Position numbers and translations under genes: made by a program. The notes under the pieces are model-generated. The model ran no database searches. It was not told the origin of the DNA and saw only the letters and a program-made list of their open reading frames with translations. A stretch of 33,220 nucleotides of DNA from Anaerolineae bacterium (GTDB lineage Bacteria; Chloroflexota; Anaerolineae; Aggregatilineales; J027). Every line of letters starts with the position of its first letter. Position 1 is the first letter of the stretch. The stretch spans positions 1 to 33,220 of the forward strand of contig JAAUUD010000005.1 in assembly GCA_012031655.1 (NCBI GenBank), read 5' to 3'. This document shows positions 14,314 through 20,712 of the stretch, piece after piece.

Positions 14314-16943
14314 CTAAAGCGCTGCCAGTCGCTCTTGGAAGGTGCGGTAGCTGGCCTGATATTCGCTGAGGCGGTCGCGCTCGCTCTGGACAACTTGCGG
14401 CGGCGCTTTGCTGACAAACTGTTCGTTTGCTAACTTCTTTTCAATGTTCTGGATGAGCTTCTCCACGTTTTCCAGCTCTTTCTGGAGCCGCACCCGTTCT
14501 GCATCCAGGTCCACCAGGTCTGCCAGCGGCAGATAGAGCGTCACATCCGCCGCGACCAGCGCCGCTGCTTTTTCCGGCGCACCCCCATTCAGCCGAATGT
14601 CCTCAATGTTGCACAGCCGCGTAAAGACGTAGCCATAGTCCGCCAGCAGGTTGCCAGTCGCCCGGGGTTAGCCAGGGCGTGCAAGCGCTTGCCTGGGTCC
14701 ACGTTATACTCGTTGCGCACCAGGCGCACCTGCTGCACCAGGTCAACGAGCAAGCTCATCTGTGTTTCGGCGACTTCGTCCCGCAGAGCCGGGCTGCTGG
14801 GCCAGGCGGCAACACACAGCGCCTCGCCTTCATGCGGCATGTGCTGCCAGATTTCTTCTGTGATGAACGGCATGTAGGGGTGCAACAGTCGCAGCACCGT
14901 ATCCAGCGTATAGACCAGCACCTGGCGTACAGTGGTCTTAGCGGCCTCATCCTCACTGTATAGGGTGTGCTTGCTCACCTCCAGGTAAATCGGCGCAAAC
15001 TGCTCCCACACAAAGTCTAGAATCTGGCGTCCTGCTTCAGCATATTGATAGCTTTCAAACAGCCGATCCACGGTTTCCACCAGTTCAGTCAGATGGCTGA
15101 GGATCCAGCGCTCCGGCAAATCCAGGGTGGTTGGGTCAGGGCGCTGCGGGGTCAGTTCTGCATCCCCCAGGTTGCTCTGGACGAAACGCGCCGCCTGCCA
15201 CAGTTTGTTGCCAAAATTTCGGCTGTACTCAACACGGCTCATAGCCAGGTTCATGTCGTTGCCGGGTGTCGAGCCTGTTAGCAGCGTAAAGCGCAATGCA
15301 TCTGTGCTATAGGTATCCATGGTGTCCAGTGGATCAACGACATTCCCCAGGGTTTTGGACATCTTGCGGCCTTGTTCGTCGCGCACCAGCCCATGCAAGT
15401 ACACCGTGTGAAACGGTGGCTTACCCGTAAACCATAGCCCCATCATGATCATCCGCGCCACCCAGAAGAACAGGATGTCGTAGCCAGTTTCTAGCACGCT
15501 GTTAGGATAATAGCGCGATAGGTCCGGCGTTTGGTGCGGCCAGCCTAGCGCGCTAAAGGGCCACAGCCCACTACTAAACCAGGTATCCAGCACATCCGGG
15601 TCCTGTTCCCATAGCCCACTGTCATCCGACGGGCCAGCGCGCAACACGCGCATTTCGCCTGTTTCGCGGTGATACCAGGCCGGGATGCGATGCCCCCACC
15701 ACAATTGGCGGCTGATACACCAATCCTGGATGTTTTCCAGCCAGTGGAAGTACACCTTTTCGAAGCGCTCCGGCACGATGCGAATATCCCCGTTCCGCAT
15801 GGCAGCGATAGCCCGATCGGCCAGGGGTTGGATTTTCACAAACCACTGCTCCGAGATCAGCGGCTCGATGACCTCACCTCCGCGCTGGCTGACAGGTAAT
15901 GTGGTGTGGTAGTCCTCCTCGCGGAGGGTCATCCCAGCGGCTTGCATATCGGCCCATAGCTTTTCCCGGCAAGCATAGCGATCTAACCCCGCATAGGGGC
16001 CGCCCTGCTCGTTGATCGTCGCATCCTTGTTCATCACGTTCAGGATGGACAACCCATGCCGCTGTGCAAGCTCATAGTCGTTAAAATCGTGCCCTGGTGT
16101 GATCTTAAGCGCGCCTGTCCCAAATTCCATATCCACAAATTCATCCGCGATGACGGGAATCGAGCGATTCAACATGGGCACATAAGCGGTTTTGCCGATC
16201 AGGTGCTGGTAGCGCGGGTCGTTCGGGTTCACCGCCAGCGCGGTATCGCCCAGGATCGTCTCTGGACGAGTGGTCGCCACAGGCAAGGACTCACCACCTT
16301 CAACCGGGTAGTTGAAGTAGTACAGCTTGATGTCAACTTCCTTGTTTTCCACTTCCAGGTCGCTCACGGCGGTTTGCAACCCTGGCGACCAGTTAATGAG
16401 CCGGGTGCCGCGATAAATCAACCCCTGCTCATAGAGCGTCACAAAAGCTTCGGTCACCGCTCCCGAAAGCCCCTCATCCAGGGTAAAGCGCTCACGCTCC
16501 CAGTCGCAGGAGGCGCCCATACGCCGCAACTGGTTCTGGATTTGCCCACCATATTTTTCCTTCCAGGCCCAGGTACGCTCCAAAAAGGCTTCCCGCCCGA
16601 TTTCACGCCGGTCAATGCCCTCCTCGCGCAACATTTTTTCCATCTGGAGCTGCGTGGCAATGCCAGCATGATCTGTACCAGGGATCCAGAGTGCCGCTTT
16701 GCCCTGCATCCGCGCCTGGCGGATCATCAAATCCTCCAGGCTCACGAACATTGCATGGCCATTGTGTAGCGCGCCAGTCACATTAGGCGGTGGAATGGCG
16801 ATGACGAAAGACTCAGCCCCTTCTGGGGCGACTTCTGGTTTGAAGTAGCCTTTGGACTCCCAGAAAGCATATAGACGGCTTTCTGCCTCGTGGAAATCAA
16901 AATTTTTGCTGAGTTCTGGCATCGCTTTTCCCTTCTTGTTCAA
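14314..16943 (-). CDS. valS: Valyl-tRNA synthetase, frameshifted near 14661-14668
   Basis: PPPNVTGALHNGHAM (HIGH), KMSKTLGNVVDP (KMSKS), GTDHAGIATQ. The C-terminal coiled coil (YLPLADLVDLDAERVRLQKELENVEKLIQNIEKKLANEQFVSKAPPQVV) lies in ORF 14314..14544 in another frame. A second possible start is near 16922. Confidence 0.94.
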
Positions 16944-17007: not shown

Positions 17008-17832
17008 CTACCCTCGCCGCACAAACGTTCTGATTTCCGGGGCTGCCATGGGCTTTGTCCCAATCATCACCAGTTCGGCCCGGTCATGCGAAATCTCGAT
17101 GTCCTCAAACCCCGCTTCGAGCATCACCACCTGCACTTCAGCAGCCGTGAGCGCCCGGTTCTGGATGGGAAAAACCTGCACATTATAGCGCTCCCCCTCC
17201 TGCGTCAGGATGAACTTGTTAAGCGTAACGGTCAGGGGGGGGCCTTCGTGCCAATCCCACGTCTCAAAGACGATAGTTTGCTGCCCACCATGGTCTTCGG
17301 GGTCGTGAACACGCCCCGGCAAAAAGCGCGGTCGATCCTGTAAGTAGGGCTCAAAGTCGCGCATTCCGATCAACACAATGCCGCCAGGCCGCAAGAGCCG
17401 ATAAAACCCGGCTAGCGTTTCTTCGATCTCTGTATCGGTGATGAGGTGCGGGAAAGCATCGCCCTTGGTCAAGATGACGTCCAGATTGCCATTCGTCATG
17501 CGGGCAATATCCAGAAACCCGGCCTGCAAAAAAGTAATGCGGTCACTCACGCCGGATTCTTCGGCATGTTTGCGCGCTCGTTCGATCATCTTCGGGCTAG
17601 GGTCAGAGGCCAACACCCAATACCCAATTTGCGCCAGGGCGACAGCCTGCGTCCCTGGCCCACAAGAGGCATCCAGCACCGTCTTCACCTCCCGGTCGCG
17701 GAACCAGCGCTTCAGCCGCATGCCTTCGCGCGCCAGTTGCGCTTCCCAGTCCCGGTAAAACAGATGATACTTCTCCGCCAACAGATCATAGTAGGCTTGG
17801 TTGGCGTTGCCTTGTGCGGATGTGTCGCTCAT
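17008..17832 (-). CDS. Class I SAM-dependent methyltransferase
   Basis: MSDTSAQGNANQAYYDLLAEKYHLFYRDWEAQLAREG...VKTVLDASCGPGTQAVALAQIGYWVLASDPSPKMIERARKHA. The ORF extension to 17907 overlaps the T-box terminator, so the internal ATG is preferred. Confidence 0.82.
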   Translation of the reverse strand: MSDTSAQGNANQAYYDLLAEKYHLFYRDWEAQLAREGMRLKRWFRDREVKTVLDASCGPGTQAVALAQIGYWVLASDPSPKMIERARKHAEESGVSDRITFLQAGFLDIARMTNGNLDVILTKGDAFPHLITDTEIEETLAGFYRLLRPGGIVLIGMRDFEPYLQDRPRFLPGRVHDPEDHGGQQTIVFETWDWHEGPPLTVTLNKFILTQEGERYNVQVFPIQNRALTAAEVQVVMLEAGFEDIEISHDRAELVMIGTKPMAAPEIRTFVRRG

Positions 17833-17881: not shown

Positions 17882-18115
17882 AAAAACGTCCCTGCCACAA
17901 CTGGCAAGGACGATTGCTCGCGGTACCACCTTGCTTCCTGGCCTTACACTAAAAAGCCAGGCGCTCGAGACGCGCTAACGGGCGTTACCGGGTGTGCTTA
18001 CTCAATTCAGCGCACCAACTCAGGAGCGACTTCGGCGGGACCCTGCGGTTTGCGCTTGCAGCCTGTGGCGCAAACTCTCTGCAACGCGGCTTAACCCGCC
18101 TACTCCTCTCCTTCA
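17882..18115 (-). ncRNA. T-box riboswitch leader, probably tRNA-Val responsive
   Basis: Minus strand: T-box/antiterminator AAGGTGGTACCGCG (17919..17932); terminator stem CGTCCTTGCCA/TGGCAGGGACG followed by TTTTT (17882..17912); Stem I GGAG-AGTA-GGCGGG ... CCCGCC-GAAGTCG-CTCC with candidate specifier GUC (18028..18030). Confidence 0.92.
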
Positions 18116-18145
18116 CAGTTGTTGGGTCAGGTGAGGTTGATTGAG

Positions 18146-18218
18146 AGCCAACTATGGGAGTCGAACCCATAACCTATCGCTTACGAAGCGATTGCTCTGC
18201 CGATTGAGCTAAGTTGGC
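18146..18218 (-). tRNA. tRNA-Thr (anticodon CGT)
   Basis: Minus strand: GCCAACTTAGCTCAATCGGCAGAGCAATCGCTTCGTAAGCGATAGGTTATGGGTTCGACTCCCATAGTTGGC(T). Acceptor GCCAAC/GTTGGC, anticodon loop TTCGTAA. Confidence 0.95.
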
Positions 18219-18229
18219 AACTTGCCTGC

Positions 18230-18256
18230 ATTATAGCAAGGCGCGCGACCTGTCAA
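18230..18256 (-). promoter_or_regulatory. Consensus sigma70-type promoter driving tRNA-Thr and probably the downstream T-box operon
   Basis: Minus strand TTGACA-N15-TATAAT; the -10 lies 11 nt upstream of the tRNA 5' end. Both hexamers match consensus exactly, though the spacer is short. Confidence 0.75.
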
Positions 18257-18394
18257 GCGGAAACCCTTCTGCCGCCAGCAGATTAGAACGTCAATAGAAA
18301 GCTTCGCCGCTGGCCATGCGCTGGTTTAAACTACACTATGGGCTTCTGTGGAAGCAGGGCCTCTTTGCTAGCCTGCTGCTGGAGCACACGCGCC

Positions 18395-19418
18395 TTGAAA
18401 ATCCAAGCCTTTACAAGCCCACACGTTTTTGAAGCCCTCCGCCCGGAATGGAACGCCCTCCTCCAGAACAGCCAGCAAAACTATGTTTTCCTGACTCACG
18501 AATGGCAATCGACCTGGTGGCAAGCCTATCACCCGGGGGAACTTTGGGTGCTCACCCTGCGCGATGAAGCCGATAACCTGCAAGCGATTTTCCCCTGGTT
18601 CATCCACACCCAACCCGAAAAAGGCCGCATTGTACGTTGGATTGGGTGTGTCGAAGTCACCGACTACCTGGGCGCCATCCTGCAAAAAACGCCAGGAAGA
18701 AGCCCTGCTGGCTACGGTTGTGGACTATCTGGTGGAGCACAGCGACCACTTCGACCTCATTGATCTCTGCAACATCCCGGCAGGTGCGCCCATTCTGGCG
18801 CTGCTCCCACCTTTGTTAGAAGCCAGCAACTTTCAGGTGAATGTCTGGCAACAGGAAGTCAGCCCGGTGATTCAGCTGCCTTCAGACTGGGAAGCTTACC
18901 TGGAAATGTTGGACAAGAAACAGCGCCACGAAGTTCGCCGCAAGCTGCGCCGCATCACTGGCCAGAACTTCGAAGTCACCTGGCGCTACGAACAACCCCA
19001 GACGCCGGAAGAATGGGCCAGCCTGAAGGAACGTTTTTTTGGCCTGATGCGCGCCAGCGGCGAAGACAAGCAGCGCTTTCTGGAAGACCCGCAAAACGTC
19101 GATTTCTTTGCGCACCTTTTGCCTACCATGGCGGAACAAGGCTGGCTTCTGCTCAGCGTTTTGCAGATCGATGGGCGCGATGCCGTTGCCTATTGCAGTT
19201 TTGATTATGAAGGGCGTGTGCTGCTCTACAACACTGGCCAGGACCTGGACTATTACGCGGAATACAGCACGGGAAGTGTTTTGCTGGCCTATATCATCCG
19301 GGATGCCATCGAGCGTGGGCGCCAGGTCTTTGACTTTTTACGCGGTGATGAACGCTACAAGTATCACATGGGCGGGCAGGATACAGCAGTGCTGGGAATT
19401 TCCGCCCAGCGCCCATGA
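18395..19418 (+). CDS. FemAB/BioF2-like (GNAT-fold) acyltransferase, frameshifted near 18684-18689
   Basis: ORFs 18338..18763 and 18564..19418 join at an A6 run (...VTDYLGAILQKRQEEALLATVVDYLVEHSDHFDLIDLCNIP...). C-terminal DKKQRHEVRRKLRR and VLLAYIIRDAIERGRQVFDFLRGDERYKYHMG are typical of BioF2/CelD-like proteins. Start is uncertain (TTG at 18395). Confidence 0.72.
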
Positions 19419-20712
19419 GCACCGCGCCGCACCTCCCCCCGCTACGCCTGGCCATGCTCAGCCTGCACACCTCACCCTATGCAGCCCTGGGTGGCCAAAA
19501 AACGGGCGGCATGAACGTCTACGTGCGCGAGGTCACGCGCGAGATGGCCAGACGCGGCTTACTAGTGGACGTTTTCACCCGGGCCACGGCTCCAGATGAG
19601 CTACACCAGGTCAGGCCAATGGATGCCCACACGCGCCTTATTCACTTGCCTTGCGGCCCAGCAGAAACCCTTTCCCCAGAAGCCATGTTTGTGCACACAG
19701 GTCAGTTCCGCGATGCCTTGCTTAATTTTGCTGCTCAGCAAGGCACCACTTACCACACCGTCTATAGCCACTACTGGCTAAGCGGCTGGGTCGCAATTCA
19801 GTTGCGCCGACGTTGGGGCATCCCCGTGGTGCAGATGTTTCACACGCTGGGCCGCATGAAAAACCGCATCGTGCCAGGGATGCCAGAAGCGCCCCCTGGC
19901 GACACCCGTATCCAGGGCGAAACGGAGATCATCCACCAGGTTGACCGCATTATCGCCGCCACTCCGGCGGAACGCGAACAGTTGCTTATGCTCTACCGTG
20001 CAGATCGACGCCGCATTGATATTGTCCCACCTGGGGTTGACCTCACCCGTTTTCACCCCGGGGATCCGCTCGAAGCGCGGCAGCGGCTCCATCTCCCGGC
20101 AGATGCAAAATTCTTCCTGTTCGTGGGGCGTATTGAACCCCTCAAAGCCGTGGACATCCTGATTGAAGCCCTGGGCGAGCTGCGCCAGGCACGCCCAGAC
20201 CTCGGCCAGAACCTGGCTGTTCATGTGATTGGCGGCGACCCCCAAAATGCAGACCCCGAAATGCAGCGCTTGCAGGCACTCTGCGCTGCACTGGGGCTAG
20301 AAAAGCAGGTTCAATTTTGGGGGCGCAAGCGCAAGAGTCCCTAGCGGACTACTACCGGGCTGCGGAAGCCCTGGTGATGCCGAGCGATTATGAAAGCTTT
20401 GGCATGGTCGCGCTAGAAGCAATGGCCTGCGGAACGCCAGTCATCGCCTCCGAGGTGGGCGGCCTGGCGTATCTGGTGGAAGATGACCGCACTGGCTTTC
20501 ATGTGCCTGCCCGCGAACCAGCCACCCTGGCGGCCCGCATGGCGCTGCTGCTGGAAGACCCTGCCGACGCCAGGCCATGGCCAGGCTGCCCTGGCCCAGC
20601 GCGCCAATACAGCTGGGCCAGGATCACCGACCGGTTGCTGGCGACCTTTACCATGCTGGAAATGCGCCCGCATCGGCTCAACTGGCCCCCAACAGCAGGC
20701 CCGCTGAGCTAG
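19415..20712 (+). CDS. Group 1 (GT4-type, MshA-like) glycosyltransferase, frameshifted near 20319-20323
   Basis: LSLHTSPYAALGGQKTGGMNVYVREVTREMARRGLLVDVFTRAT...SHYWLSGW...FVGRIEPLKAVDILIEAL; second ORF ADYYRAAEALVMPSDYESFGMVALEAMACGTPVIASEVGGL. A 6th G in the G5 run restores VQFWGAQAQESLADYYRAAEAL. Confidence 0.85.

Follow-up and report, generated by a model that had tools for sequence, protein, structure and literature searches.

On the minus strand of the window, a stretch of 33,220 nucleotides from an Anaerolineae bacterium, a gene for tRNA-Thr is closely followed by a T-box riboswitch, the leader of an operon containing valS. The question raised by this locus is whether the tRNA and the tRNA-sensing regulator are made as one RNA from a single promoter and, if so, which tRNA the riboswitch reads and what such an RNA would do. 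The elements concerned are as follows.

18230..18256, minus strand: promoter TTGACA-N15-TATAAT, with TTGACA at 18256-18251, a 15-nt spacer, TATAAT at 18235-18230 and TG ahead of the -10 (extended -10), read from the sequence
18146..18218, minus strand: tRNA-Thr(CGU) gene with discriminator U (U73), CCA not encoded (Rfam RF00005, 70.9 bits)
18126..18145, minus strand: 20-nt linker from the tRNA to the start of the T-box model, read from the sequence
17903..18125, minus strand: T-box leader (Rfam RF00230, 119.1 bits, E 4.8e-26, model positions 1-219 of 219)
18028..18030, minus strand: specifier GUC (Val), from the sequence and the Rfam alignment, with the same codon in relatives
17925..17928, minus strand: T-box bulge UGGU, suited to a tRNA ending in ACCA, from the sequence
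17887..17912, minus strand: intrinsic terminator, an 11-pair stem and then TTTTT, from the terminator scan
17008..17832, minus strand: SAM-dependent methyltransferase gene, the first gene of the gated operon (Pfam Methyltransf_25)
14589..16943, minus strand: valS, N-terminal 784 codons (Pfam tRNA-synt_1 and Anticodon_1)
14314-14667, minus strand: C-terminal part of valS in another frame (open frame)

The order of promoter, tRNA-Thr(CGU) and T-box given in the preliminary description is borne out by the sequence, ARAGORN and Rfam. The tRNA has a cloverleaf with its anticodon and a conserved T-arm (ARAGORN, Rfam), ARAGORN placing the boundaries of tRNA-Thr(CGT) at 18145-18218, and the transcription start predicted from the promoter lies at about 18223 on the minus strand. 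The consensus promoter scan accepts spacers of 16-18 nt only, so the window promoter, with its 15-nt spacer, is not listed by it. The gap between tRNA and T-box, previously put at about 31 nt, is indeed short, but it measures 20 nt to the start of the Rfam model, 31 nt extending past the element's 5' boundary. As had been described, neither a hairpin with a U-tract nor a recognisable promoter was found in this linker from the sequence and the terminator and consensus scans.

The T-box scores above the curated threshold of RF00230 (93 bits). Its GUC specifier follows the specifier-loop GAA and agrees with the valS downstream, and a tRNA-Val(GAC) with A73, encoded in the window's genome, fits the UGGU bulge. 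From the specifier, the bulge and the downstream valS, the predicted ligand of the T-box is tRNA-Val. The terminator (17912-17887) overlaps the 3' side of the antiterminator, as seen from the Rfam alignment and the terminator scan. Sensing of the adjoining tRNA-Thr is ruled out by the GUC specifier and by the mismatch at the discriminator, U73, where the bulge needs A; because of its CGU anticodon and U73, this tRNA is non-cognate on both counts. The proposal that tRNA supply and a tRNA-sensing regulator come from one RNA is supported by the comparative genomics described below, but the tRNA supplied (Thr) is not the tRNA sensed (Val).

The valS gene is split over two frames (14314-14667 and 14589-16943, minus strand), as are, on the plus strand, an acetyltransferase-like gene (18338-18763 and 18564-19418) and a glycosyltransferase-like gene (19415-20344 and 20317-20712). 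This suggests either indel errors of the draft assembly or real frameshifts in the three genes.

The window's genome is a draft fragmented into 470 contigs, with a completeness of 70%. The adjacency that the preliminary description expected in close relatives is kept in 9 of 10 genomes of the family, where tRNA-Thr(CGU) stands directly before the GUC T-box, and in about 30 of the 34 genomes of one genus of a sister family (5 + 25 by pattern searches), making about 39 of 44 genomes across the two groups; the pattern searches, which at the level of the order covered 154 genomes, rely on exact motifs and a restricted range of gaps, and these counts are lower bounds. For the sister genus, 29 of 30 loci were confirmed as tRNA-Thr(CGU) by ARAGORN, with the GTC specifier recognised in nearly all, and wherever the pair was read it was Thr(CGU) with a GUC T-box; in a full locus from this genus (L245) valS lies directly 3' of the T-box. 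No second high-identity copy of tRNA-Thr(CGU) was found in any of the 10 family genomes, and the other threonine isoacceptors, where seen, lie in a separate cluster. Searching 154 genomes with the reversed pattern as a control yielded 0 and 1 matches, which together with the conservation rules out chance adjacency. Most of the genomes are metagenome assemblies; conservation across many of them, and the presence in isolates of the nested form described below, argue against an assembly artefact.

In two other genera of the order (L016, L027) tRNA-Thr(CGU) is separated from the downstream T-box by 0.8-1.4 kb that includes a uridine kinase-like gene, and the methyltransferase gene comes after the T-box; one of them adds a further ORF before the T-box. 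This order is probably ancestral, and the fused tRNA/T-box form would arise if the genes in between were deleted.

Running the same pattern on a sample of 400 Chloroflexota genomes revealed further tandem pairs. In several families tRNA-Val(GAC) precedes T-boxes whose specifier (ACC) is threonine-like and which are followed by a ThrRS-like frame, with 5-9 nt from the tRNA to the T-box model in L288, L299 and L300; the loci of this type (L282, L288-L296, L299, L300) are a mirror image of the tRNA-Thr/valS T-box of the window's family. A tRNA-Glu(UUC) precedes a T-box and a SerRS-like frame in L283, and in L284-L286 tRNA-Ala(GGC) precedes T-boxes with a CTC specifier, two of these cases adding tRNA-Ala(CGC) and one (L286) having a LeuRS-like frame downstream; the ThrRS-, SerRS- and LeuRS-like names for tandem pairs come from reading of the N-terminal sequence, not from a profile search. 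All the pairs seen are non-cognate, which with about five independent pairings is statistically not significant. Non-cognacy as a selected feature, sparing the sensor from a short-circuit, was considered and set aside on this ground.

Another T-box of the window's genome (G000:C64:8203-8506; L006:1501-1804, minus strand) has a whole tRNA-Ala(GGC) gene within it, placed after Stem I/II and before the antiterminator, and this nested tRNA is found in 10 of 10 family genomes (L006 and L078-L086). At least 66 nested loci, most from a collection of species genomes, were verified by ARAGORN. The form is spread widely in Chloroflexota and Bacillota, with cultured isolates among the carriers, which by record title include Chloroflexi, Ktedonobacteraceae, Thermomicrobia and Coprothermobacterota as well as Desulfotruncus alcoholivorax, Desulfofundulus thermosubterraneus and Syntrophomonas and its relatives. 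Besides the two named Desulfo- species, Dictyobacter arantiisoli and Tengunoibacter tsumagoiensis are cultured organisms with the nested form. The nested pattern matches 35 of the 400 sampled Chloroflexota genomes, of which a few are probably chance matches. Among at least 120 stretches with the pattern in the species genomes, about half were without a tRNA and two had other tRNAs and no specifier that could be recognised; all of these were set aside as chance matches.

In nine nested loci the Rfam T-box model spans its full length (74 to 131 bits), and in the alignments of three the tRNA appears as an insertion of 76-82 nt in the loop of Stem III. The CUC specifier is recognised in most nested loci, and a LeuRS-like frame usually lies downstream. 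Stem III is formed by pairing between the two flanks of the tRNA: duplex energy, averaged over 53 non-redundant loci, was -11.1 kcal/mol for a locus's own flanks, compared with -7.6 when flanks were swapped among loci, and 0 of 20000 permutations reached the value of the own flanks (z -10.7). In Ktedonobacteria and some others the same leuS leader has two tRNA-Ala genes, CGC just upstream and GGC nested inside (L088, L128, L153, L165, L167, L201, L202). With the tRNA inside the T-box, as in the nested form, there is no alternative to a single transcript, and this strengthens the corresponding reading of the tandem form.

In L093, L116, L151, L184, L144, L176, L158 and L183 the first long frame past the nested T-box does not look like leuS, being acyl-CoA synthetase-like, aminotransferase-like or acetyltransferase-like. 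Genes other than leuS therefore appear to have recruited the composite leader in these few cases. The tmRNA model RF00023 gives the nested tRNA-Ala 41-47 bits, at or just below its threshold (L196:3015-3089, L093:6221-6296, L116:2294-2368 and L166:979-1053), and automatic annotation may therefore call it a tmRNA.

Consensus scoring of 38 tandem loci placed a promoter, mostly with an extended -10, 10-18 nt ahead of the tRNA in every one, with a mean score of 10.5 compared with 7.1 for the best site in the tRNA and linker. The upstream promoter outscores the best inner site in 37 of the 38; the exception, G005, has a longer linker with a TTAATA-N17-TAGAAT-like site whose score equals that of the upstream one. 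The linkers differ in length and sequence between loci, and no conserved promoter or terminator was found between tRNA and T-box. No terminator was found in the linkers of the family genomes, and in the sister genus some longer linkers fold into hairpins, a few of them with ATTTT after, and a few loci have weak inner sites. On consensus evidence the layout is that of a mixed tRNA-mRNA operon, with a promoter ahead of the tRNA, no further one before the mRNA and, in the window and the family, no terminator before the mRNA leader. A natural control is provided by G001, the one family genome without the pair, where tRNA-Thr(CGU) is located elsewhere with a short T-run after it. Its Val T-box, again before a methyltransferase gene, has a promoter of its own, TAGACA-N17-TATAAT (L014 1466-1494), with the T-box model starting at L014 1501. 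A T-box promoter is visible where no tRNA adjoins, and absent from view where one does.

It is probable that the promoter at 18256-18230 drives a single RNA carrying tRNA-Thr(CGU), the Val T-box, the conditional terminator, the methyltransferase gene and valS, the tRNA being made unconditionally and the synthetase gated; the co-transcription of tRNA and T-box from one promoter, as first proposed, is strongly supported by the comparative genomics. Because it lies upstream of the conditional terminator, in the tandem and the nested form alike, the tRNA would be produced in every round of transcription, and uncharged tRNA-Val would decide at the terminator only whether the polymerase enters the synthetase operon. 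The terminated leader would be a tRNA precursor, not waste, and the T-box terminator would serve also as that of the tRNA gene. In the tandem form the tRNA would probably be freed by RNase P and RNase Z, the latter for the 3' cut because CCA is not encoded, and the T-box would thereby acquire a 5' end made by processing; we may reasonably infer that tRNA nucleases make this end of the riboswitch. The 3' end of the tRNA is about 230 nt from the terminator, a few seconds' transcription, so the decision would probably precede processing. As counterpoints, the 15-nt spacer of the window promoter is below the optimum, and in the minimum-energy fold of the window transcript the cloverleaf is weakened (mean pair probability 0.65, compared with 0.95 for the tRNA alone), the tRNA acceptor pairing with the T-box through complementary sequence that is not seen in most other loci read.

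The same elements could also form two transcription units, with the tRNA transcript ending or being trimmed just past the tRNA and the T-box promoter lying inside the tRNA gene or the linker. That this family's Val T-box can have its own promoter is shown by G001, and the evenly scored inner site of G005 and the hairpins and weak inner sites of some sister-genus linkers would fit such a division. We nevertheless regard it as unlikely, as the inner sites are weak, unconserved and in all but that one locus inferior to the upstream promoter, several are located at the Stem I base, where a start would, from their positions, lose the 5' side of the stem, and the family linkers are without a terminator. 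Since other pairs in the phylum leave 5-16 nt, a separate T-box promoter would need to sit inside the tRNA. The read-through could also be real and the fusion functionally inconsequential, loss of the uridine kinase gene having joined two neighbours by accident. The gene order in the two other genera does indicate an old neighbourhood in which fusion by deletion is possible. Such an accident is made very unlikely by the keeping of the pair in most genomes of both groups despite strongly varying linkers, by the loss of the visible T-box promoter and by the repeated appearance of the same architecture in other tRNA/T-box combinations; retention, promoter loss and recurrence suggest at least a dependence on the shared promoter.

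It might further be supposed that the cis-encoded tRNA joins in the decision, its processing by RNase P/Z or its fold altering that of the T-box and so coupling the status of threonine (or alanine) tRNA to synthetase expression. The nested tRNA does lie in the discriminator domain, after the sensor and before the terminator, enclosed by a covarying Stem III, and its excision would split the sensor from the expression platform. For the tandem form, however, the tRNA is outside the T-box and non-cognate, the linkers vary freely and the terminator would be reached in seconds, probably quicker than processing, and we consider this participation extremely improbable, though less so for the nested form. 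A broader proposition, which we would offer only tentatively and with more doubt than confidence, is that tRNA-bearing T-box leaders of Chloroflexota and Bacillota are a distinct class of composite RNA in which maturation and decision occur on the same molecule, the nested tRNA being structurally part of Stem III and its excision by RNase P/Z, which would sever sensor from platform, tuning or resetting the switch and coupling two amino acids.

The single-transcript reading suggests that a riboswitch leader may serve as a tRNA precursor as well, the terminated RNA still giving a component of translation. T-boxes with a 5' end cut by tRNA nucleases would be implied, and the nested form implies a riboswitch that has to work with a whole tRNA separating its sensor from its decision hairpin. 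Whether RNase P/Z acts before or after transcription termination becomes directly testable, and Rfam T-box matches with long Stem III insertions would be worth checking for tRNAs.

The T-box of the window resembles those of valS and other synthetases (RF00230; Wels 2008, PMC2494555; TBDB, PMC7778990) in being complete, with a synthetase-matching specifier, a UGGN bulge and a transcription terminator. It differs from RF00230 T-boxes in beginning about 20 nt past a tRNA gene and in having no promoter of its own, and a term search of PMC2494555 and PMC7778990 turned up no T-box with a tRNA gene next to it or within it. Insertions of unknown structure and function are noted for every T-box domain in a 2020 review (PMC7583486), and T-boxes with insertions or in tandem (PMC7583486; contiguous riboswitches, PMC12452182) are likewise leaders carrying extra domains. 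Unlike in those cases, the extra piece here is a full tRNA gene, tRNA genes being unmentioned in the passages found in the two papers. In the open-access papers searched, neither tRNA genes directly next to T-boxes nor tRNA genes nested in them were found to be described, an earlier mention being possible in the classical comparative papers. The suspicion that the arrangement was undescribed looks right from this search, and the arrangement is broader than first seen: T-boxes and mixed tRNA-mRNA operons are already known, and the tandem and nested tRNA/T-box arrangements, which are widespread, seem to be undescribed.

The thrU-tyrU-glyT-thrT-tufB operon of E. coli is a mixed tRNA-mRNA operon, in which tRNA and translation-factor genes have one promoter and the tRNA is excised by RNases. 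Like it, the window has a tRNA and a translation-related gene that would share a promoter, with the tRNA probably cut out by RNases. Unlike the E. coli operon, it has a conditional, tRNA-sensing terminator between the tRNA and the protein gene, which would uncouple the two products.
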